Assembly (NCBI GenBank): GCA_902789265.1
Contig: CADANR010000007.1
Location: forward strand, 1 to 32,529
Length of the DNA: 32,529 nucleotides
Direction: 5' to 3'
Source: an uncultured Lachnospiraceae bacterium
GTDB taxonomy: Bacteria > Bacillota > Clostridia > Lachnospirales > Lachnospiraceae
The notes under the pieces are model-generated. The model did not search any database. It was not told the origin of the DNA and saw only the letters and a program-made list of their open reading frames with translations. Position numbers and translations under genes: made by a program. Positions within the stretch are counted from its first letter, which is position 1. Each line of letters starts with the position of its first letter. Shown piece by piece: positions 745-10,331 of the stretch.

Positions 745-833
745 ATGCTCTTCTCCTTTGCTGACTTTTTCACAAGATATAAGTGGGAATGCCCTGTTTT
801 ACATACGTTTTACATGAAATTTCCACATATGTT

Positions 834-862
834 AGAATAGCATTTTCAAGCGGAAAAATCAA
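834..862 (-). promoter_or_regulatory. Probable sigma-A promoter of purO
   Basis: On the minus strand, TTGATT (857-862) is followed after 17 bases by TATTCT (834-839), with TG one base before the -10 (extended -10). The predicted leader to the purO start is about 85 bases. I looked for a purine riboswitch in that leader and saw none. Confidence 0.55.
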
Positions 863-901
863 CGAAAACGGGCGTTCTTTCACAAAGAATACAAGAGTTT
901 T

Positions 902-2080
902 TTATAAAGTAATTCTGGCAATCCTTCCCCATCCGGGATTTACCTTTTCATTGTTTAAAAGCCAGAGTACGGGAATCCCCATAGCTACACTTTCCGGAGG
1001 AAACGGAGCATATCCGTCCGTCAGAATAATAATGCTTGCCGGGAGATTTTCCTGCATATTCTTTCGGACATACTCGAAAACAGCATTAAAATCCGTTCCG
1101 CCGCCGCCTTCCGGACGGATGATACGAAGCTCTGCTTCATCAGAAAAAGGCTTCGGCGGAATTACCAAGGCATCAAAGAAGCCGAGCCACCCGGACAGTT
1201 TTCCGTCAAACTGGTCAATTGCACCTTTTATCTCGGAATAAGCTGCTGTAATCATCTCATCCGACATGGAACCGGAGGTATCAATCATAAAAAGTATATT
1301 TTCAAGCCGATCTTCTCTTTCATTGAAATCGGGCAGGAAGAAATCTCCGCCGTCAAATCTTCTGTCCGGCGGTGTAAAAGAATAGTCCATAATCTCTTCC
1401 TGGACGAATTCAGTTAAAATCTTTCTCCAGTCAATTTGCGGATTCCTAAGTTCTTTTAAGAAACGCTCGGCAAATGCCGGAAGCAGACCCCTGGAATGGT
1501 CGGGATCCCTGATTTCCATCGCCGCACAGGCTTCTTTCAGCCTTTGCACCCAGACATCCTGAAGTTTTCCGTTCTCCTCAGCACTTTCCCACATGGAGTG
1601 ATCGTCCTTAAAACCGCTCGCCGGCATCACCTTCCCAAGCATTTCATAAACCTGCTCCGCGGTAAAAAGATACCCTTCCTGTCCGTCCGGAGTCAAATGC
1701 ATGGCCGGTTCTCCGTTCACGGAAATCTTTCTTTCGTCCCCGCCGAAGGAATTCATAATTTCCGAATTCACAACAATATCCGCAGCGATATTGAACCGCT
1801 CCATATCCCTTTCTCCCTTACGTGCAAGGTGTTGCAACACCACATGCATGATTTCGTGCATGATTACGAAATCCAGCTCCGCATCGGAAATCGAATCAAG
1901 GAACTCCGGTCCGAAATAAATTCTTTCCCCATCGGTTGCAGCCGTATCAAGGGTTTCATCCAAAGAAAAGGTGACATGCATAAGCAGTAGCCCGTAGAAC
2001 CCGTTGATACAAAGTAGCCTCATCCTGGATTGAAGAAGCCGTTTCATAAATTCTTTTATTTTATCATCCGAATGTACCAT
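902..2080 (-). CDS. Zincin-like + VWA domain protein (DUF2201 family)
   Basis: The 392-residue protein has two domains. The N-terminal half carries HEIMH at residues 75-79, a HExxH zinc-binding motif, followed by 'NIAADIVVN' with D101 as a likely third ligand, as in the DUF2201_N putative metallopeptidase domain. The C-terminal part is a von Willebrand A domain with a complete MIDAS site: DTSGS at 267-271, T329 in 'GGGTDF' and D355 in 'ILTDG'. No signal peptide or membrane segment is seen. It is the last gene of a three-gene set; its start lies 17 bases inside the preceding MoxR ATPase gene, with AGGAAG in front. MoxR and VWA proteins usually work as pairs, the ATPase remodelling a target that the VWA protein recruits. 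Whether the zincin site cuts protein is unknown. Confidence 0.88.
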   Translation of the reverse strand: MVHSDDKIKEFMKRLLQSRMRLLCINGFYGLLLMHVTFSLDETLDTAATDGERIYFGPEFLDSISDAELDFVIMHEIMHVVLQHLARKGERDMERFNIAADIVVNSEIMNSFGGDERKISVNGEPAMHLTPDGQEGYLFTAEQVYEMLGKVMPASGFKDDHSMWESAEENGKLQDVWVQRLKEACAAMEIRDPDHSRGLLPAFAERFLKELRNPQIDWRKILTEFVQEEIMDYSFTPPDRRFDGGDFFLPDFNEREDRLENILFMIDTSGSMSDEMITAAYSEIKGAIDQFDGKLSGWLGFFDALVIPPKPFSDEAELRIIRPEGGGGTDFNAVFEYVRKNMQENLPASIIILTDGYAPFPPESVAMGIPVLWLLNNEKVNPGWGRIARITL

Positions 2081-3182
2081 TTAAGAAGCTTCCTTTCTCT
2101 TCCAGCCATTTCCGGAATTCCGGAATCTGCATCAGTTTCTTTTTATAATCATCTTCCAGGTACATATAATCCTTCATCAGGACGGTCGCAAAATCAGGCG
2201 GCATCTGATTTGCATAGCGGATGGAATTGGTCATTTTATTTAAATCTCCCTTACACCCTCTCGCATATGCCGTCATGGACGAAGTAAGCGCATAAAGTGC
2301 ATCCGTTCCGGTCGGCAGCTTTGGATTGGAACCTGCAAAAATATCTTCCACTTTCGGAAGCTCCCGATACACATTTGCCCATGTCCTGAACTCAACCGCC
2401 ACACCGGTACCGACAATTCCCGAAATCATGGAATACATTTCATCCACATCATCCGATACCGCATTCAACAGGTTGCTGACCATCTCCCAGGAACGCGGTG
2501 TGGGGAATGCCAGATCCTCTGCGGACGCATCAAACCCCATAAGGTAATTGCTACGGAATGAAAGAAAGCCGATCACCTTTTCGTTGATGCCGGACTGAAT
2601 TGCCCAACGTTTCCAGGAGTCGAAATTTCCTTCCACCTCCATATGCAGGAAACGGTTTGCCAGTGCCTTCGGCATTTTATACGCTACGGATTTATCCGTC
2701 GTTCTGTTACCGGCAGCAATTACGATGCAGTTATCCGGCAATCTGTGCTCTCCGACCGTCCGGTCAAGCGCAATCTGGTAAGCCGCAGCCTGCACGGACT
2801 GCGGTGCCGCTGAAATTTCGTCTAAGAAAAGAATATTGATTACTTCTTCCGACGGATCCATTTGAAAAATCTCCGGTCTTAGCCATACTGCCAGCGTCTT
2901 ATCCGCATTTGCCGTCGGGATACCGCGAAGATCAATCGGATTAAAAAGCAAAAGACGCACGTCGGTAATCGAAACGCGCTTTTTCGTCTCTTTCTCAATA
3001 CGGTTTCCGATCTGTCTTACCGCCTGGGATTTGCCGACACCGGGAGGTCCCCATAGCATCACGGAAGGCACTGTTTTCACAGGTAGACCCGATTTTAAAA
3101 CGGCAATATATGCCGAAGATATTTCTTTTACCATCTCTCCGATCGACAAAACCGGAACATTCTTATTCATGATATCATTCAT
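2064..3182 (-). CDS. MoxR-family AAA+ ATPase
   Basis: The 372-residue ATPase has Walker A GPPGVGKS (45-52), Walker B ILFLDE (117-122), sensor 1 AAGNR (156-160) and an arginine finger candidate in 'LANRF' (R177). The layout fits the MoxR group (COG0714), whose members act as hexameric chaperone-like machines with a VWA partner (RavA-ViaA, CbbQ-CbbO, NorQ-NorD). Its ATG overlaps the stop of the helicase gene as ATGA, and its 3' end overlaps the start of the VWA gene by 17 bases, so all three are probably translated together. The usual MoxR plus DUF2201 pair is common; the coupled helicase is the unusual part. Confidence 0.9.
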   Translation of the reverse strand: MNDIMNKNVPVLSIGEMVKEISSAYIAVLKSGLPVKTVPSVMLWGPPGVGKSQAVRQIGNRIEKETKKRVSITDVRLLLFNPIDLRGIPTANADKTLAVWLRPEIFQMDPSEEVINILFLDEISAAPQSVQAAAYQIALDRTVGEHRLPDNCIVIAAGNRTTDKSVAYKMPKALANRFLHMEVEGNFDSWKRWAIQSGINEKVIGFLSFRSNYLMGFDASAEDLAFPTPRSWEMVSNLLNAVSDDVDEMYSMISGIVGTGVAVEFRTWANVYRELPKVEDIFAGSNPKLPTGTDALYALTSSMTAYARGCKGDLNKMTNSIRYANQMPPDFATVLMKDYMYLEDDYKKKLMQIPEFRKWLEEKGSFLNGTFG

Positions 3183-6100
3183 TCTCTGTTTACCCCCAGT
3201 CTTTCATCCAGTTCATTTACTTTCAGTCTGTAGTACTCAATCTCATCCGTATAGGATTCATTCTTCATAAGCTCCGCTTCGATTTCGCATTTCCTTGTTT
3301 CAAGCTTTAATAAGCCTTCCCGGTATTTCGTTAATCGGTCTTCGAAACCGTCCAGGAAATTATCGATACGGATTAAATTGCCGAGCTGTGTATCCGCCAT
3401 TTCCAGCTGATACTGCCCGTTAAGACGAATCCATACAAAAGGCTTGATTATTTCCATACGCGCGGGAAGGACAATCTCAAAACCTTTGTAGGTTGCAAAT
3501 ACGCTCTCGTGTTCCTTAAAGTCATTCTCTTTAATTGCGGCATTCAGCTCTTCCCTGAAGGACCGGCGGATCTCCGTCTCCTGTTCTTTGAGCAGGGTAT
3601 CCTCTGCGGCTGCATTTTTCTCTTTCCAGTCGTTATATGCATTCAAATCCTTAATGCAGTCTGCAATTCGTTCCTTCTGCTTCTCGATTTTTTCCGGAAG
3701 TTCCTTTAATTCCTTTTCCATACCGAGTCTTGCATCCAGGGTTTTCCTCTGGAGGGATAAGAATTTGGTCAGCTCATTCTGGGCTTCCACGCGCTCTTTC
3801 ACAAGCGGATTTCCTACTGCAAGTGCTTTTACTTCCGCATAATTTAAGACAATATCGTCCACGTCTCTGCCGTCACGTTCCGTTACGGAACCGGAAAGGA
3901 GATTCGATATAAATCTCTGCTTCGTCTCCAGCAACTGCCAGGAATAAGCATCGAAACTGCCCTCCGTGATATAGCGGTAGATTTCGACCTCCTTATTCTC
4001 GTTTCCCTGTCGGATGATTCTGCCCTCTCTCTGCGTCATGTCAGCAGGACGCCAGGGCACATCCAGATGATGCAGTGCAACGAGCTTATTCTGGATATTG
4101 ACACCGATGCCCAGTTTAAAGGTGGAACCGATGATAATGCGCACTTCTCCCGACTGGATACGGGCAAAGAGTTTCAGTCTCTCCTTCTCCGTTTTTGCAT
4201 CGTGAATATAGGCAATCTGTTCCGAAGGAATGCCGAAGAATTCCAGTCTTTTCCGTAATTCGTCATAGATATTAAAATCCTGCTTCGGCGTGGAACTGTC
4301 GCAGAAAATAAGCTGGGTGCTCTTCTTATCGGACGTCCTTAAATAGATCAAAGCCACATTCTCTGCGCACCTTGCCACTTTGGAGGAATATGAAAAACCT
4401 GCTTTTTCATCCACGAGTCTGATGTCCAAAGCCGCCTTCCTGCCGTCCGTCGTGATTTTCAGCATATTGTCTTCTTCCCTGGAAACCAGTCTGGCACGAA
4501 CAGCATCCGCACGTGCGGAAATATCCTTTAAATACTCCGCAAGCTCCGGTGTCTTCGTAACAAGGGAATCCTTGTACCCGTCATGAACGGGTACGTCATT
4601 CTCCTCATCCATCTGATGAAAATCGGCAATCATGGAAAGTAAGGACGTCATCTCCGGAAGATTATGAAATTCCGCGAATCTGGTTGCGAGACGGTAGCTG
4701 CTGGTATCCACGTCAATTTCAAATTCCGTGCGTTTTTCCGCAAACATGCCGATCCAGCTGTCAAAGTTCTGTAAATCGAGCATTGCCAGTTCCCCGCTTT
4801 GCAGATACATCTGCATGATAAATGCATCCGTAATGGAATTGGTAATCGGTGTACCCGTTGCCATAACAACGCCTTTTCCGCCGTTGTTTTTCTGAATCAT
4901 GTGCACCTTATCCAGCATATCCCTGCACTTTTTGGAACCGGCGGAGCTGATGCCGAGAACGCAGTTTGCCTTCGTCTCAATCGGAACATTTTTGAAATTA
5001 TGAGCCTCATCGACAAAAAGCCTGGTGATTCCCAGCTCATCAAAATAAACCCCGTCATAGGTATCCTCTGTCTCACACAAAAGATCCTCCAGATCGGAGG
5101 TCAACTGGTCCCTCTTTTTCTTAAGCTTTCCGGTAGCTTTCTTCTTCTCACGGATTGCCTGTTCGACTTTTTCCTTCTCTTCCCTGATTTCTTCGCGGAA
5201 GTACTCCTTCGAAAGCGGAATCTGCTCAAAGCAGCTGTAGGCAATAATAATGCCGTCTGCTTCTTCATCACGGATGCTCTCAAGAATTATTTTGCGTTTT
5301 TCCGGCTTAAAGCTCTTCGGGTCCACGACGATGAGTTTCGCATCGGGATACATGGTTTTAAAAATCTGAGCCCACTGTCCTACGATGTTATTGGGAACAA
5401 CATACATATTCTTGGCGGAAAGCCCCATTCTCTTAAGCTCCTGTCCGGACGCAATCATGACATAGGTTTTTCCCGCACCGACATCATGCGCAAGCAGGGT
5501 ATTCGGCGTAAAGAGAATCCTTGCAACCGCATTCTTCTGATACGGGTATAATTGTATCTCGGAAGACATATTCGGAAACGTAAGAAAAGACCCGTCAAAT
5601 AATCTTCTTTTAACGCAGCTGAACTTGTTTTCAAAAATATTTCTCAGCCGCTCTTTTCTTGCCTTATCCTTCCATATCCAGTCCTGAAAAGCTTCGATTA
5701 ATTTCTTCTGCTTTTCAATGGCTGCCAGTGTTTCGGTCTGATTGATGACGCGCTTCTTCCCGGAGGAATTCGTCTGGCACATTTCTTCGTCGGTCACAAC
5801 GATGGTTTTCATATTCAGGGTTTTCTCCAGAATATGGAGTGCCTCCATACGTTCCGTTCCGTATGTACGGGTAACAAGAACGCTGTGATAATAGCGATTT
5901 TTCTCAGGAATTTCCCAGCTTCCGGTAATCGGATCATGCTTTGTTCCGAAGTATGGTTCCAGCCTTTTTTTGTACTCCGGTGTATAGGCTAAACGGAACG
6001 GATTTCCGAAGATCTCCACCATGAAATCATCGATAATATCAGCCGGAACCCACGGAGATCCCAGCGTGATATAGATATCTTCGGTTGCAACACTCGGCGG

Positions 6101-6484
6101 AAGGACCTTCTCAATTGCTCTTAAATTGTCCTTAAAATACCCGTTATACATTTTATTGGCATCATTTGCCGCCTGCCATTTGCGCATAAGGTTACCGGAA
6201 AGATACTCTTCCGCCGTCTCCCAGCCTTTATAATAAACTTCTCCCCACTTTTCGGGATTCTGATAAATAGAGCCCTTCAGGGTTTCGATGACGGTTTTAT
6301 AGTCTTCCCCCGTAACTGCGGAAATATACTCAATATCCACTTCTCCGCGCGTACAGATACAATGAACCAGAGCATCCGGAATGCTGTCGAAATGCACTCC
6401 TCCGGAGCTTTTATCCGTTCCGAATACGTTGCCCCAGTCAAGCGGTAAATCCATGCGTAATGCTAAATTTCCATCTGTTTTCAT
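3179..6484 (-). CDS. SF2 (SNF2-like) helicase, methylase-less relative of ICE methylase-helicases
   Basis: The 1101-residue protein has Walker A HDVGAGKT (333-340), DEAH (492-495), motif III TGTP (543-546), a motif V region 'GSTFKLGIGVNIQ' and motif VI 'QREGRIIRQG'. A charged coiled coil (about 428-470) sits between motifs I and II, and the last 200 residues are rich in coiled coil. The first 300 residues, with 'WETAEEYLSGNLMRKW', 'YGTERMEALHILE' and 'FQDWIWKDKARKERL', match my memory of the region before the helicase core in the giant N6-methylase/helicase proteins of conjugative transposons and phages. No methylase motif is present here. I place the start at 6484 because AAGGAG stands six bases before that ATG; an in-frame start at 6511 has no such site. 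Its stop overlaps the MoxR start. Cytosolic, probably a double-stranded DNA translocase; function unknown. Confidence 0.85.
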   Translation of the reverse strand: MKTDGNLALRMDLPLDWGNVFGTDKSSGGVHFDSIPDALVHCICTRGEVDIEYISAVTGEDYKTVIETLKGSIYQNPEKWGEVYYKGWETAEEYLSGNLMRKWQAANDANKMYNGYFKDNLRAIEKVLPPSVATEDIYITLGSPWVPADIIDDFMVEIFGNPFRLAYTPEYKKRLEPYFGTKHDPITGSWEIPEKNRYYHSVLVTRTYGTERMEALHILEKTLNMKTIVVTDEEMCQTNSSGKKRVINQTETLAAIEKQKKLIEAFQDWIWKDKARKERLRNIFENKFSCVKRRLFDGSFLTFPNMSSEIQLYPYQKNAVARILFTPNTLLAHDVGAGKTYVMIASGQELKRMGLSAKNMYVVPNNIVGQWAQIFKTMYPDAKLIVVDPKSFKPEKRKIILESIRDEEADGIIIAYSCFEQIPLSKEYFREEIREEKEKVEQAIREKKKATGKLKKKRDQLTSDLEDLLCETEDTYDGVYFDELGITRLFVDEAHNFKNVPIETKANCVLGISSAGSKKCRDMLDKVHMIQKNNGGKGVVMATGTPITNSITDAFIMQMYLQSGELAMLDLQNFDSWIGMFAEKRTEFEIDVDTSSYRLATRFAEFHNLPEMTSLLSMIADFHQMDEENDVPVHDGYKDSLVTKTPELAEYLKDISARADAVRARLVSREEDNMLKITTDGRKAALDIRLVDEKAGFSYSSKVARCAENVALIYLRTSDKKSTQLIFCDSSTPKQDFNIYDELRKRLEFFGIPSEQIAYIHDAKTEKERLKLFARIQSGEVRIIIGSTFKLGIGVNIQNKLVALHHLDVPWRPADMTQREGRIIRQGNENKEVEIYRYITEGSFDAYSWQLLETKQRFISNLLSGSVTERDGRDVDDIVLNYAEVKALAVGNPLVKERVEAQNELTKFLSLQRKTLDARLGMEKELKELPEKIEKQKERIADCIKDLNAYNDWKEKNAAAEDTLLKEQETEIRRSFREELNAAIKENDFKEHESVFATYKGFEIVLPARMEIIKPFVWIRLNGQYQLEMADTQLGNLIRIDNFLDGFEDRLTKYREGLLKLETRKCEIEAELMKNESYTDEIEYYRLKVNELDERLGVNRE

Positions 6485-6490
6485 AATTTT

Positions 6491-6552
6491 CTCCTTTTGA
6501 CACTTTGACACTGGGGGGACGGGGTTATCGTATCATTTTTGTCCCGCGCCCC
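6491..6552. repeat. REP-like imperfect palindrome in front of the helicase operon
   Basis: The tandem TGACACTTTGACAC (6498-6511 region) leads into GGGGGGACGGGG, which can pair with GTCCCGCGCCCC at 6541-6552 across a loop of about 20 bases. It resembles the short G/C-rich palindromes with GACAC boxes found in scattered copies in Firmicutes near Y1 (REP-associated) transposases; that likeness is from memory. No transposase is present. It ends a few bases from the ribosome site of the helicase. Confidence 0.4.
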
Positions 6553-6721
6553 TTATATACGGTATCATCCCATGTGTACATTTACATGGACAGGTCACCA
6601 CAGGGACTAAAGTTGCCATCGTAGCTGACAATTTGCCCAGAGGATCCCATTGCTGCATATTCAATATATCGTGGAAAAATGAAAAATAACAGCAACCGGT
6701 AGTTGCATGCCTTACGCAGCC
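6553..6721. other. Non-coding stretch between cotH and the helicase gene
   Basis: This spacer holds the short inverted repeats CCATGT/ACATGG (about 6570-6589) and GCAAC/GTTGC (about 6692-6706). I found no convincing promoter for the helicase operon on the minus strand and no credible gene. It may be decayed repeat sequence continuous with the REP-like element beside it. Confidence 0.35.
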
Positions 6722-6755
6722 TTGCAAAAGAAAAAGAGCCGCCAAAGCGACTCTT
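6722..6755 (-). terminator. Rho-independent terminator of the VTC-DUF4956-CotH operon
   Basis: On the minus strand AAGAGTCGC (6747-6755) pairs with GCGGCTCTT (6734-6742) across a four-base loop with one G-U pair, and a TTTCTTTT tail follows. It lies 25 bases after the cotH stop. Confidence 0.85.
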
Positions 6756-6779
6756 CTCGTTTCCGTTATTATACTTTTC

Positions 6780-8549
6780 CTACCGCCTGCGTTTTACCAC
6801 GATTACAACCACAAGGGCTGCAACCAGAACTGCAAGGTAAATACCGTAAACGGCAAGTGATTTAAAATTCACAGGACCGGTATTTCCGTTATCGCCGTCA
6901 CCGGAGGGATTGTTTCCGTCAAACGGATTAAAACCTCCTCCCGGATGAAATCCCTGTCCGGGATTGAAGCCGCCCCTCTTTTCAGGCTGTTTCTTGAAAT
7001 CACGGTCATTTCCGCCCATACCGCCCATGTTGAATTGACCCATGGCTTTTACGTCTATTTCAGAACCGTCCACGAAGGAGGAAGAATCTTCCCGCTGTCC
7101 TTCATCGGTTGACGGAATCGTACCGTTTAACTGTCCTTCAATGCTTTCCGCACGGAGCTTTATCGTTTTATAGAGATAATCTGCTGCCACCTGATATTCA
7201 TCATAATCGTAAAATGCGGTCGGGTCTGTTTCCACTAAGGAATCAATCCGGGAACGGATCCGGGTATATGTTTCATCGAATTTTCCGCCGTTTACATACT
7301 CGTCCACCAGCATCTGCAGATATTCATGATACTTTGCACGATACTCATCGTTTTCAAGCAGTGCATCAAAGAATTCCGTTCCGGAGAAAAGCGTATCGAT
7401 TGCATCATTAATCATCTCCGTTGCATCCCCGCTTGAGCCCATCGACATACCGCCGAAGGATAAGTTGTAATCCCAGGGAATAATGTTTAACTTTCCTTTC
7501 GCTTCATACAGGTAGTAATTATGCGCCATGTTACCGGAAAGGCTGTCATTATTTACTGCAAAGGTATGAACTGCCATGTATTTTAAAACATTGTCCACAT
7601 CCAGATACTTTTCCAAGTCATTGCCTTCGCTAATGTTCTTTAATGCTTTAACAACTCTTTTGTGATCCTTTTCTCCGGTCTTTGTAATTTCGCCTTCCCA
7701 GATGGTACTGTAACTGTCCAAATCATCATCCGTGTAATTTAAGTTGGAACCGCCGTTTCCACCCATGGAGAATCCGCCTTTTCCGCCGAACGAAAATCCG
7801 CCTTTCGGATCCTTACCGTCTGATTTTCCGTTATCCTTTCCGCTGTCTTTTCCGCTGCTCTTGCCGCTTCCTTTACTGCTGTCTTTTCCGGATTTACTGT
7901 CTCCGCCGCCCATACCCATGGACTCCGGCTTATAGATTTCTCCGTCTTCCGCTCCGTAGTTCCGAAGCATAAAACTCTGCTCTACCGCTTCAAGCGCAAG
8001 ATAGACACCCTGATACTCTCCGTTTCTGGAAACCGATGCGTAATTGTATAACGATGCATCCGCACCGAGATACTGATACATATCGTAAATTACGGCTTCC
8101 TTCATATTGGTGGCATCCGCGTAATTGTTGTTCAGAATCAGCTTGTCGAGGCCGAAGCAGGTCTGACCTTCGGTAAAATGCCCGAATTCCAGTTTTAAAC
8201 TGTACCTGTCGGAATCCGGATCCATTGCGATTGCGGAAAGGCTGGTATTTCCCTTCGGACGGATTGCGACATTGTAGAACTTCGTCCCGTTTATCACCAC
8301 ATCACAGCTGTAATAATTTTCCGACATGGCATTCTCTAACATTTCGTTCCATGTATCATCATCCATCAGAATATCAATACTGATTATTTCATCGGTATTG
8401 AAAAGCTTTGTTTCGTACTCAACCTTCACACCGGTTCCGCCGGCTTTTTCAAGGATTTTATCAGAAAAAACAACCGCCAAAAGACTCAGGATGACCGCAA
8501 TCGCCATAAGCGCTATAATTATTTTTGAAACATGTTTATTTGCGACCAT
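6780..8549 (-). CDS. CotH kinase family membrane protein
   Basis: The 589-residue product has an N-terminal membrane anchor (about residues 8-30), an extracytoplasmic CotH-like kinase domain, and a C-terminal membrane helix ending in KRRR. CotH signs are 'LDKLILNNNYADATNMKE', 'QGVYLALEAVEQ' and 'NIIPWDYNLSFGG', the last carrying the metal-binding aspartate. A low-complexity insert rich in SGK/SGKD followed by glycine repeats lies near residues 215-275, and another Gly/Pro/Asn-rich linker precedes the last helix. CotH of Bacillus phosphorylates spore coat proteins; the target here is unknown. GAGGAGG five bases upstream supports the start. It is the last gene after the VTC and DUF4956 genes, a grouping seen in many Firmicutes, suggesting a joint surface or phosphate-linked role. 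Confidence 0.88.
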   Translation of the reverse strand: MVANKHVSKIIIALMAIAVILSLLAVVFSDKILEKAGGTGVKVEYETKLFNTDEIISIDILMDDDTWNEMLENAMSENYYSCDVVINGTKFYNVAIRPKGNTSLSAIAMDPDSDRYSLKLEFGHFTEGQTCFGLDKLILNNNYADATNMKEAVIYDMYQYLGADASLYNYASVSRNGEYQGVYLALEAVEQSFMLRNYGAEDGEIYKPESMGMGGGDSKSGKDSSKGSGKSSGKDSGKDNGKSDGKDPKGGFSFGGKGGFSMGGNGGSNLNYTDDDLDSYSTIWEGEITKTGEKDHKRVVKALKNISEGNDLEKYLDVDNVLKYMAVHTFAVNNDSLSGNMAHNYYLYEAKGKLNIIPWDYNLSFGGMSMGSSGDATEMINDAIDTLFSGTEFFDALLENDEYRAKYHEYLQMLVDEYVNGGKFDETYTRIRSRIDSLVETDPTAFYDYDEYQVAADYLYKTIKLRAESIEGQLNGTIPSTDEGQREDSSSFVDGSEIDVKAMGQFNMGGMGGNDRDFKKQPEKRGGFNPGQGFHPGGGFNPFDGNNPSGDGDNGNTGPVNFKSLAVYGIYLAVLVAALVVVIVVKRRR

Positions 8550-8561
8550 AACTGCCTCCTC

Positions 8562-9233
8562 TTAGGCCATGTACTCTCCGTTATAAGAAACCAGAGTTGC
8601 TGCACTTACACCGGTAAGTTCATTGACACGGTTTACGAAATCGGTGGAATTATTTTTAATCCGAACCTCTGTTGTCAGTTCGATTCCGGAAGCATTCACG
8701 CTCTTGGATTTTACCATGTATTTTCCGACTGACTTTCCGATTAATTCAAGTGCACTCTTCTCCGCGTTTTCATCGTTACAGTTCACAATCAGAATGTACG
8801 GGGTGTTACGGATTTTACGGTTTGCAAAAATCACAAGAATAATTCCGATAATCAAAGAACCGATTACAGCAAGCGGAATCATTCCGGCTCCGATTACAAT
8901 ACCGACCGCAAGCGACCAGAATAAGAATACGATTTCCATCGGCTCCTTAATGGCTGTACGGAATCTGACGATGGAAAGGGCGCCGACCATACCGAGTGAA
9001 AGAACTACGTTTGAGGTTACCGCCATAATAACCAGTGTCGTAACAAGTGAAAGGCCGATTAATGTAAGCCCGAATCCGTTGGAATACATGATTCCGCTGA
9101 AGGTCTTTTTGTAGATGAAAAATATGAACAACCCGATCACCAGTGCAAATGCCATTCCGATCAGTACATCGACTGTGGAAAATTCCGTTACATTCTCCAA
9201 AAAGCTTGATTTAAATACATCATTAAAACTCAT
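8562..9233 (-). CDS. DUF4956 family membrane protein
   Basis: The 223-residue protein has about four hydrophobic helices in its first 140 residues and a soluble C-terminal domain. The family mark 'GMVGALSIVRFRTAIKEP' sits between helices. AGGAGG stands before the ATG. It lies between the VTC-domain gene and the CotH gene, 12 bases before the latter. DUF4956 proteins are regularly next to VTC genes, so it may be the membrane part of a polyphosphate-type machine; its biochemical role is not known. Confidence 0.87.
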   Translation of the reverse strand: MSFNDVFKSSFLENVTEFSTVDVLIGMAFALVIGLFIFFIYKKTFSGIMYSNGFGLTLIGLSLVTTLVIMAVTSNVVLSLGMVGALSIVRFRTAIKEPMEIVFLFWSLAVGIVIGAGMIPLAVIGSLIIGIILVIFANRKIRNTPYILIVNCNDENAEKSALELIGKSVGKYMVKSKSVNASGIELTTEVRIKNNSTDFVNRVNELTGVSAATLVSYNGEYMA

Positions 9234-9353
9234 TTTTCTTCCTCCTGAATTTATGTATGTTTTCGAGTATTTCTGTTTTCTTATATTTGTTTTTCTGCTT
9301 TATATTTATTCTTTTATATTTACGCTTTCTTTCGCGCTCTTCATTCTGTCTGT

Positions 9354-10046
9354 TTATCCGTATCTGCGGCATGCTCCGTACTTGGAGAAGGCTTCCTGCC
9401 TTACATCCCTCAGCTGTATGAAATCCTGAATGATTTCCGGCAGGAACGCATCATATTTTACTTCCAGAATCATATCCTTCGGAGTCTCCGTTGCCGAAAT
9501 ATCCCAAACCTCTTCGGTTAAAAATTCCCTGGAATAAAGGCTTGTGCGAATCTCGGAATCGAATGTGACACGCACGTTTCCGGGAGCGTAGATGTATGGT
9601 TCCCTTACATACGAAACCAGGACTCTCGGGCGCAATCTCTGATAGTACATCTTTGCGTATAATTCCCTGACAAGTTCCTCTTTATGATCCCTCATAAAAT
9701 CAAGGTCTCCGTCCAGGATCATCCTGCATTCCTCTTTCGTAATCGGTGCATCATATTTCAGACAGAGGTTATTGATTTTCATCTTTTTTTCCAGTGTGAT
9801 AAAGGAAAAATCGTCGTTATAATAGCGAATCCTGAACTTCTCACGTTTTGCGATTCCGTCTGTTTTTTCATGCAGTGCCTTATCGTCACTGTTGTCGAAA
9901 TAAATGCTTCGAATCCGGTACCGGCCGTCTGCATTCGTATGCGGATCCGAACTCATAATGCTTCTTATTCGGCTTCTGATTGCCAGATAATCGGTATACG
10001 AAACAGGGTATTTCAATTCGTGTCTGTAGGGCTTTTTCTCTTCCAA
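9354..10046 (-). CDS. VTC-domain protein, polyphosphate-polymerase-like
   Basis: The 230-residue product is one VTC domain (PF09359). In yeast VTC4 this tunnel-shaped beta barrel makes polyphosphate from ATP. The basic strands expected to line the tunnel are visible: 'RHELKYP' at the N-terminus, 'RYRIRSIYFD', 'REKFRIRYY', 'LEKKMK' and, near the end, 'MILEVKYD'. The start codon is TTG: an in-frame stop lies two codons upstream, no ATG is available, and AGGAAGGG precedes it by ten bases. It is the first gene of the VTC-DUF4956-CotH set; the gap to DUF4956 is 120 bases of purine-rich sequence without a terminator. Bacterial members may polymerise phosphate or act on another substrate, so the activity is inferred. 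Confidence 0.88.
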   Translation of the reverse strand: MEEKKPYRHELKYPVSYTDYLAIRSRIRSIMSSDPHTNADGRYRIRSIYFDNSDDKALHEKTDGIAKREKFRIRYYNDDFSFITLEKKMKINNLCLKYDAPITKEECRMILDGDLDFMRDHKEELVRELYAKMYYQRLRPRVLVSYVREPYIYAPGNVRVTFDSEIRTSLYSREFLTEEVWDISATETPKDMILEVKYDAFLPEIIQDFIQLRDVRQEAFSKYGACRRYG

Positions 10047-10096
10047 TCCGGTTTACCCTTCCTTTCTCAAAAATACATTCATAGTGATTCATTTCA

Positions 10097-10127
10097 GTTA
10101 TACTATAAAATGCTTACCTTAATTCAA
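10097..10127 (-). promoter_or_regulatory. Possible promoter of the VTC operon
   Basis: On the minus strand TTGAAT (10122-10127) and TATAAC (10097-10102) are 19 bases apart, longer than ideal. It is the best match in the spacer before the VTC gene. Confidence 0.3.
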
Positions 10128-10142
10128 CCTTAAATAATAAAT

Positions 10143-10224
10143 CGAGTAGGGAAGAATTTATTCGCACCCTACTCGCCGCGCCGCCTGCGTCCGGCTTTAG
10201 CCGGAAAACTACATTACGCAGGCG
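10143..10224. repeat. Double palindrome element
   Basis: Two perfect stem-loops stand side by side. The first has 9-base arms CGAGTAGGG (10143-10151) and CCCTACTCG (10167-10175) enclosing GAAT/ATTC. The second has arms CGCCTGCGT (10182-10190) and ACGCAGGCG (10216-10224) enclosing CCGGCT/AGCCGG (10191-10204). Neither is followed by a T-run, so they are not simple terminators. It could be a dispersed repeat or a structured RNA. Confidence 0.5.
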
Positions 10225-10239
10225 TGAGCATAAAGAAGT

Positions 10240-10274
10240 AAAAAAAAGAAGGGCTGCCGCAAATGCGACAGCCC
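10240..10274 (-). terminator. Rho-independent terminator of hsp20
   Basis: Minus strand: GGGCTGTCGC (10265-10274) pairs with GCGGCAGCCC (10251-10260) over a four-base loop, followed by TTCTTTTTTTT. It is 57 bases past the hsp20 stop. Confidence 0.9.
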
Positions 10275-10331
10275 CCGAAAGGAGAATTAATTATGAAACA
10301 AAAGCATCAGGCTTTAATACACTTCTTTGGG

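Follow-up and report, generated by a model that had tools for sequence, protein, structure and literature searches.

The window analysed here, a stretch of 32,529 nucleotides from an uncultured Lachnospiraceae bacterium, carries on its minus strand three open reading frames that overlap end to start and read as one unit: a helicase, then a MoxR ATPase, then a zincin-VWA protein. The first (3179..6511, 1110 aa) encodes a putative SNF2/DarB-type DNA translocase without a methyltransferase domain. An earlier note had found this gene but began it at 6484, giving 1101 aa; that ATG is internal, and the reading frame opens with a GTG at 6511. The second (2064..3182, 372 aa) encodes a MoxR-type AAA+ ATPase of phage type (phrog_1297, 3e-94), and the third (902..2080, 392 aa) a protein with a zincin (DUF2201_N) and a VWA domain (phrog_1314, 1e-75). 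The frames, their place and their strand are as the note had them, with overlaps of 4 bases between helicase and MoxR (3179..3182) and 17 bases between MoxR and VWA (2064..2080). When gene starts are taken as longest-ORF starts, a gap of -4 is found at the first junction in 49 of 71 loci and one of -14 or -17 at the second in 60 of 74, and the recurrence of both overlaps is beyond chance. A promoter scan was uninformative, with 10 sites against 9.6 expected, and terminator-like sites numbered 17 against 6.6 expected.

The helicase matches Helicase_C (2e-10) and SNF2-rel_dom (8e-10) in Pfam and, over residues 43-1105, the DarB-like antirestriction family phrog_10089 (2.6e-241). An N6-adenine methyltransferase part was not found in the protein with Pfam and NCBIfam. 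Judged by sequence, it is a DarB-family SNF2 motor without the methyltransferase, and its families suggest that it would translocate on double-stranded DNA. Active sites were checked in full-length, hand-chosen rows (41 for the helicase, 40 for the VWA protein and 32 for MoxR). In all 41 helicase rows, positions 345 and 347-349 of the Walker A motif GxGKT (residues 345-349, 5465..5479, minus strand, as for all motifs below), the DEAH box (residues 501-504, 5000..5011) and motif VI, QREGR (residues 827-831, 4019..4033), are invariant; G553 of TGTP deviates in a single row. The predicted structure (pLDDT 78) resembles SWI2/SNF2 translocases including Mot1, which strips TBP off DNA, Rad54 and RapA, with ZorD of Zorya at rank 50. 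Helicase frames in trio loci span about 1,050-1,360 aa, and longer relatives are present in many genomes of the order. Compact size was considered as a defining mark and rejected, since the helicases of genomes G052 (1251 aa), G083 (1171 aa) and G387 (1178 aa) are also short at 37-40% identity. A MoxR or VWA match was not found on the whole G052 contig, and a VWA match was absent from G083 and G387 among the matches listed in the genome comparison of the order.

The MoxR protein matches AAA_3 (8e-9). In its Walker A motif (residues 45-52, 3027..3050) G48, G50, K51 and S52 are present in 32/32 rows and G45 in 31/32, and the Walker B DE and sensor-1 N159 are invariant in all 32. The trio MoxRs group with those of large phages, the nearest kin (44-50% identity) being on large viral contigs and in Bacillus phage G. 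In alignments against viral sequences the figure was 68 loci for MoxR and three for the helicase; single-protein viral scans gave three loci in one and none in the other. Six large viral records with the MoxR/VWA pair were without a helicase match. A plasmid search with MoxR gave none of 125 rows at 60% identity or more (best 38% among ten of the 125 rows) and thus showed no plasmid-borne trio.

The third protein has an N-terminal DUF2201_N zincin with HExxH (2e-30), followed by a DUF2201 VWA domain (1e-13; residues 264-390) that ends the protein, which is the make-up of a DUF2201 metallopeptidase-VWA protein. H75, E76 and H79 of the HExxH zinc-protease motif (residues 75-79, 1844..1858) are invariant in 40/40 rows, as are the MIDAS DxSxS (residues 267-271, 1268..1282) and MIDAS D355; T329 deviates in one row. 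Every catalytic residue checked in the trio is thus invariant or deviates in one row, and the intact key residues reported earlier are borne out. There is a weak profile match (E 0.012) to Methanocaldococcus jannaschii MJ1213, which we take to be the minigluzincin selecase. In the predicted model the domains are poorly joined (pTM 0.51); a TROVE domain heads its structural matches, NorQD comes at rank 28, and TM-scores are low. From the families, zinc proteolysis and coupling of the ring to the VWA domain would be expected.

The possibility that the pair is an ordinary chromosomal DUF2201 operon was rejected, as the VWA matches listed for the order below seven close genomes are mostly 23-35% identical. 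Among these listed matches the highest identity is 41%, across some 115 residues, apart from a stray 37-residue VWA piece at 57% in genome G196. The MoxRs of 14 ordinary DUF2201 loci fall outside the trio's MoxR group. By sequence, the pair belongs with the MoxR-metallopeptidase/VWA pairs of phages and not with ordinary DUF2201 proteins. The earlier description of it as one of the common DUF2201-type pairs therefore fits its domains but not its kinship.

The three genes are conserved together as one unit. A scan baited with trio VWA proteins gave 119 relatives, of which 80 were kept; among the kept loci 65 leave room upstream, and in 64 of these a helicase of nearly full length is present there, in most cases overlapping in the same way. 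In the reverse direction, 392 genomes of the order contain five near-full helicases with 50% identity or more, and each of the five is accompanied by the pair. The three proteins also diverge together (Mantel r 0.84, 0.80 and 0.77 in 64 complete loci; for each of the three comparisons, 0 of 2000 permutations were as high). The fixed coupling of pair and motor that the earlier note proposed is upheld by these results. Its refuting condition, that helicase homologues rarely adjoin the pair, fails for the trio's own clade but applies to the wider DarB-type family: where the surroundings of helicase relatives at 33-37% identity were read, the pair was not found.

The trio is an accessory cassette. 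It is scattered among gut and rumen Clostridia; within the genus it occurs in 2 of the 31 genomes, not all of which are complete. In the window it forms part of a 9.6 kb stretch (745..10331), together with CotH, DUF4956 and VTC genes, that lies between the genes for Hsp20 and IMP cyclohydrolase and is absent in two relatives, L232 and L235, where these genes are spaced by about 226 and 211 bp, respectively. Neighbours differ from locus to locus, many first neighbours being ordinary genes, and a constant fourth gene or nuclease was not found in or around trio loci. In other genomes the surroundings of the trio are enriched in WYL regulators, with 24 genes in the 823 kb flanking 80 loci compared to 15 in seven whole genomes (~17 Mb). 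By direct comparison, a WYL gene is present in the flanks of 23 of 82 loci, and in 10 of the 82 it is on the same strand and at most 260 bp away. An automatic "WYL" cluster of 28 loci was replaced, as it contained leucine-rich-repeat proteins. A WYL match was not found in the window's own genome, and in three of seven genomes searched WYL genes are on contigs other than the trio's. Among 90 neighbour proteins scanned there were, as raw counts, two retron-type reverse transcriptase and two GmrSD_N matches.

Patchiness and WYL enrichment favour a role against invaders, although the earlier note's defence or DNA-uptake control is still an inference. Our preferred reading, with a probability of roughly 0.4, is of a single accessory machine that moves horizontally and acts against invaders; its targets and its role in defence are guesses. 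The SNF2-type protein would track along double-stranded DNA, and the MoxR ring would dock through the VWA MIDAS and remodel the motor or the proteins that the motor meets. The N-terminal minigluzincin-like zinc protease could then cut the exposed protein, the probable targets being proteins that sit on foreign DNA or come in with it. Against this reading stand the absence of WYL matches from the window's own genome and their place on other contigs in three of seven genomes, the lack of a nuclease or fixed fourth gene, the many ordinary first neighbours, the weak or generic PADLOC matches, the part that WYL regulators also play in DNA-damage responses, the virion-assembly function proposed for the phage pair, and the poorly joined VWA model with its low TM-scores. 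A narrower version, rather unlikely as it stands, is an immune protease guided by DNA: the mobile-element-type motor would bring the MoxR-metallopeptidase machine, itself of phage type, to the DNA of an invader, and proteins bound there (injected, replication or transfer-pilot) would be unfolded and cut and the DNA left uncut. Most known prokaryotic defences act by cutting or modifying nucleic acid or by harming the cell, and the only recognised hydrolytic effector in the trio is a zinc protease. If the reading is right, targeted proteolysis on DNA would be an added defence strategy, and host cells would carry a machine assembled from phage-type and mobile-element-type parts. The trio also places the phage pair, which is widespread, in a cellular setting where it can be tested.

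One of three other readings is that the trio serves the host chromosome by clearing protein roadblocks or crosslinked proteins off the DNA, as Wss1 does with Cdc48 in yeast, and that it is kept only where such stress is frequent, as in rumen and gut. The motor fold is related to that of Mot1, the protease is minigluzincin-like (by the weak match), and Wss1 is itself described in the available text of PMC4559962 as minigluzincin-like with a Cdc48 partner; WYL regulators, as PMC10693628 and PMC11804915 describe in part, also control DNA-damage responses. However, a genome maintenance function sits poorly with the lack of a trio match in 29 of the 31 genomes of the genus (some incomplete), insertion at a variable spot and the phage and mobile-element kin of the parts, and we consider it fairly unlikely. 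That kinship would instead suit a helper with a DarB-like function or one in transfer, left behind in the chromosome by an integrative element or prophage that has decayed, as would the longer helicase relatives in the order, PcfJ-like proteins (4 of 90 neighbours), transposase-like fragments seen by eye (adjoining the trio in L100, which is Ruminococcus bromii 5AMG, and near it in L068) and recombinase genes adjoining it in L157 and L158. Yet narrow pattern searches of the flanks of 82 loci gave no more than two proteins like recombinases and two that doubtfully resemble methyltransferases, many neighbours read as chromosomal housekeeping genes, the active sites are conserved, and the six large viral records with the pair are without a helicase match; a mobile-element helper is thus an unlikely explanation. 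Abortive infection, in which the motor merely senses foreign DNA and MoxR frees the protease, which then cleaves a host protein needed for life, has a precedent in MoxR-vWA-iSTAND systems, where the peptidases that vWA proteins carry as effectors are presumed in PMC12839542 to stay inactive until an invader triggers them. The N-terminal position of the trio's peptidase and a third gene that encodes a motor with intact ATPase motifs make it quite improbable.

A name for the trio was not found in family and defence libraries or in the open-licence papers searched, in agreement with the earlier note, which knew of no named system. A known defence system was rejected: PADLOC matches are weak, partial or helicase-generic (helicase to DrmD, 6e-16, residues 752-949 only; MoxR to DolB, 4e-5; VWA, 0.005), and system-specific core genes of BREX, DISARM, Zorya, Dpd and other PADLOC systems were not found in the trio. 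Restriction-modification was likewise rejected, since Pfam and NCBIfam gave neither a methyltransferase nor a nuclease match for the three proteins. Closer in organisation are the MoxR-vWA ternary conflict systems (VMAP, iSTAND, TERNS3), which, as far as described in the sections available of PMC7159879 and PMC8195603, combine MoxR, a vWA protein with an enzymatic domain and a system-defining third gene. The trio too has a MoxR AAA+ and a vWA partner in one operon. However, by those descriptions the ternary effector is C-terminal to vWA, whereas the trio's peptidase is N-terminal; the ternary third gene is VMAP, iSTAND, a beta-propeller or TERNS3, whereas here it is a SNF2 translocase; and ternary systems occur mainly in multicellular bacteria, whereas the trio, with its phage-type MoxR, is in Clostridia and Bacilli. 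Ternary third-component domains were not found in a Pfam scan, which may not model every module. The motor fold is common to ZorD, RapA and Mot1, which differ in partners and accessory regions. DarB-type or N6-MTase-SNF2 proteins of phages and ICEs align with nearly the whole trio helicase, but the trio lacks their methyltransferase and those of their kin that were read outside the clade lack the pair. Wss1/SPRTN with Cdc48/p97 works in a like way, joining a minigluzincin-like protease, an AAA+ ring and DNA, but the trio's motor is SNF2 and its ring MoxR, and the likeness is put forward as an analogy of working, not as a whole-sequence relationship. The nearest relatives of the pair are those of jumbo phages, where the same two proteins occur in the same domain order and are proposed, in the part seen of PMC7824862, to be virion-assembly chaperones; what sets the trio apart from them, judging by the six large viral records, is its SNF2 helicase.

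In the window, the three genes of the trio lie on the minus strand, each joined to the next by an end-to-start overlap in the ORF listing: a helicase ORF (3179-6511; 1110 aa from a GTG, the 1101 aa version of the earlier note starting at the ATG at 6484), a MoxR-like ATPase ORF (2064-3182; 372 aa) and a DUF2201 VWA ORF (902-2080; 392 aa). By Pfam, the helicase is SNF2-related, the ATPase is a MoxR-like AAA+ protein with AAA_3 and AAA_5 matches, and the third protein is a DUF2201 member whose putative metallopeptidase domain precedes a VWA domain. In PHROGs, the helicase falls in a DarB-like antirestriction family (2.6e-241, residues 43-1105), the ATPase in phrog_1297 and the VWA protein in phrog_1314. 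The HNH endonuclease label of phrog_1314 stands on several phage records, and is unsupported by the metallopeptidase-VWA matches of the protein in Pfam. Pfam also identifies an IMP-cyclohydrolase-like gene (31-744) downstream of the trio and CotH kinase, DUF4956, VTC-domain (the three in a row, 6780-10046) and Hsp20 genes upstream. Farther along the same contig (28472-32080) are two more AAA_5 proteins of 249 and 879 aa, possibly another MoxR-type pair.

This anatomy is conserved. Among 392 genomes of the order, seven contain a VWA relative that aligns over a long stretch at 47% identity or more; below these, the matches listed are mostly 23-35% identical and do not go beyond 41% (across about 115 residues), except for one stray piece in G196 with 57% identity across 37 residues. 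The helicase adjoins the VWA gene in six of the seven, near-full in G000, G368, G398, G329 and G078 and broken in G287, and G130 (G130:C5, L073) has MoxR and VWA without the helicase. The earlier note had proposed counting how often MoxR and DUF2201 genes flank helicase homologues. When the same genomes were searched for helicase relatives (E up to 1e-20; 114 genomes), five yielded near-full matches with 50% identity or more, and the pair is present in all five, in keeping with the coupling that the note proposed. Shorter pieces above 50% identity come from G287, on two contigs of which one carries stops, and from G227, whose lone fragment with a stop (G227:C117:10397-11272; 54% identity) and the helicase-less pair of G130 are apparent cases of decay or divergence of the trio. 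No other helicase among the matches listed exceeds 45% identity. Although frames of 1,600-4,744 aa are frequent in this remainder, some frames are as short as that of the trio (for example G052, with 1251 aa at 37% identity); presence of the pair therefore tracks the clade and not protein size. Around the relatives of 33-37% identity whose surroundings were inspected, viral ones included, no match to the trio MoxR or VWA was found within 1.5 kb on each side, or more widely at four loci.

Scanning genome contigs with the alignment of VWA proteins produced 119 relatives, and the 80 best were retained. The trio's own VWA served as bait, which leaves divergent VWA proteins under-represented. Where a title names a group, the relatives are all from Bacillota (Clostridia, Bacilli, Erysipelotrichaceae), and the sources are mostly gut and rumen assemblies. 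All 80 loci have a MoxR match, cut down by the contig end to the final 41-54 residues in two of them. Upstream of the VWA gene, 65 loci offer 4.4 kb or more, and 64 of these contain a near-full helicase; in the exception, L103, there is a C-terminal match only. The other 15 loci have less room: nine still show the helicase in part or almost whole, and six show none, the VWA gene in these six being at most 1.3 kb from the contig end. A helicase-MoxR gap of -4 recurs in 49 of 71 loci, and 60 of 74 have a MoxR-VWA gap of -14 or -17. For the 64 loci whose ORFs are complete, pairwise distances are correlated between the three proteins (0.84, 0.80 and 0.77), each value exceeding all 2000 permutations. 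The catalytic positions checked are invariant or deviate in one row among 41 helicases, 40 VWA proteins and 32 MoxRs (the window plus 40 of 63, 39 of 74 and 31 of 72 full-length rows, respectively).

The predicted helicase structure (pLDDT 78, pTM 0.61) matches SWI2/SNF2 translocases, with SMARCAD1, Mot1, Rad54 and RapA within the first 50 rows and ZorD of Zorya at rank 50. For the VWA model (pLDDT 82, pTM 0.51), a TROVE domain ranks first; VWA/MIDAS domains, Midasin and NorQD among them, make up most of the other rows, and every TM-score on the query is low. For the zincin part, the sole profile match is weak (E 0.012); its target, MJ1213, we take to be selecase. Selecase is described as a metallopeptidase of M. 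jannaschii, with no mention of the MJ1213 entry code (PMC10808063).

The origin of the pair was studied in a MoxR tree of 93 rows of 300-480 aa (20 from trios, 59 from viral contigs and 14 chromosomal DUF2201 partners). The trio MoxRs form one group (100/99), which sits with six rows (L159-L164) from viral contigs of 73-504 kb. Together they make a 26-row group apart from the chromosomal rows, with support (92/96) below the tree's own star level in a midpoint-rooted tree with several long branches. In Bacillus phage G, the MoxR is 49.8% identical and the VWA relative 35%. No helicase profile match was found in the six viral records, which may be fragments.

Double-stranded DNA is the track of moving SNF2 proteins. 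In NorQD, a finger of the VWA partner enters the MoxR ring and the VWA is rotated to remodel the target (PMC13036017), and Wss1, described as minigluzincin-like and a partner of Cdc48, removes chromatin-bound proteins (PMC4559962). Putting these family behaviors together, the SNF2 motor of the trio may find or follow foreign DNA, the MoxR ring would remodel whatever the motor meets, and the zincin would cut what the ring has remodelled. What the analysis establishes is the anatomy and its conservation; for substrate, trigger and benefit, we infer an accessory machine directed against invading DNA, with a probability of roughly 0.4. The same machine may serve other DNA, clearing protein roadblocks or crosslinks from the host chromosome, which we consider rather unlikely. 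A further reading, that the trio may be the helper of a stranded mobile element, differs from the anti-invader scheme in who benefits and seems improbable. WYL-type regulators touch the defence and repair readings: they accompany defence systems (PMC9122601, PMC9122588, PMC9122589), and DNA-damage responses are also WYL-governed (PMC10693628, PMC11804915). Such regulators occur in 23 of 82 loci compared directly, on the same strand within 260 bp of the trio in ten. The 823 kb flanking the 80 scan loci hold 24, and seven whole genomes of about 17 Mb hold 15 PF13280 matches, three near the trio, a thirty- to forty-fold excess that is only rough because the two counts were made by different methods, with query proteins drawn from the loci themselves. 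Against this excess, in G028, G329 and G287 the WYL genes are on contigs other than the trio's, and a PF13280 search found no match in the window's own genome. Among 90 neighbour proteins (87 of 103 first neighbours and three from L068), raw counts include two matches to retron-type reverse transcriptases and two to GmrSD_N. Reverse transcriptases of retron type lie beside or close to the trio in L068 (6021-9095) and L111 (10599-11561); L068 has a GmrSD-like gene directly downstream of the trio and the reverse transcriptase also downstream. The commonest PADLOC names, among the first 25 families, are ATPase models such as mad3, IetA and mad8, with four members each. By inspection, AAA, metallophosphatase, NADAR-, RtcB- and SLOG-like genes recur near the trio; automatic clustering also suggests a recurrent uncharacterized protein, of median 672 aa, in 15 of 82 loci (e.g., L100:7111-9129).

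The trio is accessory and apparently mobile, with a patchy distribution: the helicase is in two of 31 genomes of the genus, several others being only 69-90% complete. The Hsp20 and IMP-cyclohydrolase genes adjoin in G025 and G028 (about 226 and 211 bp apart), are separated in the window by 9.6 kb holding the trio and the CotH/DUF4956/VTC genes, and have other genes at that spot in G004. G003 has the CotH/DUF4956/VTC row and no match to the trio helicase; G028, of the same genus as the window, has its trio on a different contig with different neighbours, and flanks vary between loci generally. Only 14% of helicase positions differ between L087, labelled Lachnospiraceae, and L100 of Ruminococcus bromii, which suggests transfer between these lineages if the assembly label of L087 is right. 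A narrow pattern search of the 82 loci found two recombinase-like proteins in the flanks, one doubtful; transposase-like fragments were seen by eye in L068 and L100, and four of the 90 neighbours are PcfJ-like. Two short contigs classed as viral, L157 and L158, both carry the trio. By inspection of their proteins, both hold serine-recombinase-like genes and L157 also a relaxase-like gene, and they are therefore taken for integrative elements rather than phages. In L157 (5318-8004), a gene resembling serine recombinases, with genes similar to ParB and relaxases upstream of it, enters the trio helicase immediately ahead of motif VI, a layout that would fit insertion of an integrative element at this point; snf2 genes of ICEs are known targets of Tn1806-like elements (PMC12942858). 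In L032 (8001-16711), about 6.4 kb lie between residues 599 and 604 of a DarB-type helicase match, and in L158 (5293-6858) the trio is followed by a VWA protein of TROVE/DUF2828 appearance and by two large genes resembling serine recombinases.

The earlier note knew of no named system with these parts, and no publication describing a MoxR with DUF2201 and a helicase was found in the open-licence literature searched. In MoxR-vWA ternary systems, a ring, a vWA protein and a third component follow a logic common to the trio, but the position of the peptidase, the third component and the hosts differ (PMC7159879, PMC8195603, PMC12839542, PMC10910872). The nearest kin of the trio's pair are the MoxR-metallopeptidase/vWA pairs of jumbo phages (PMC7824862).
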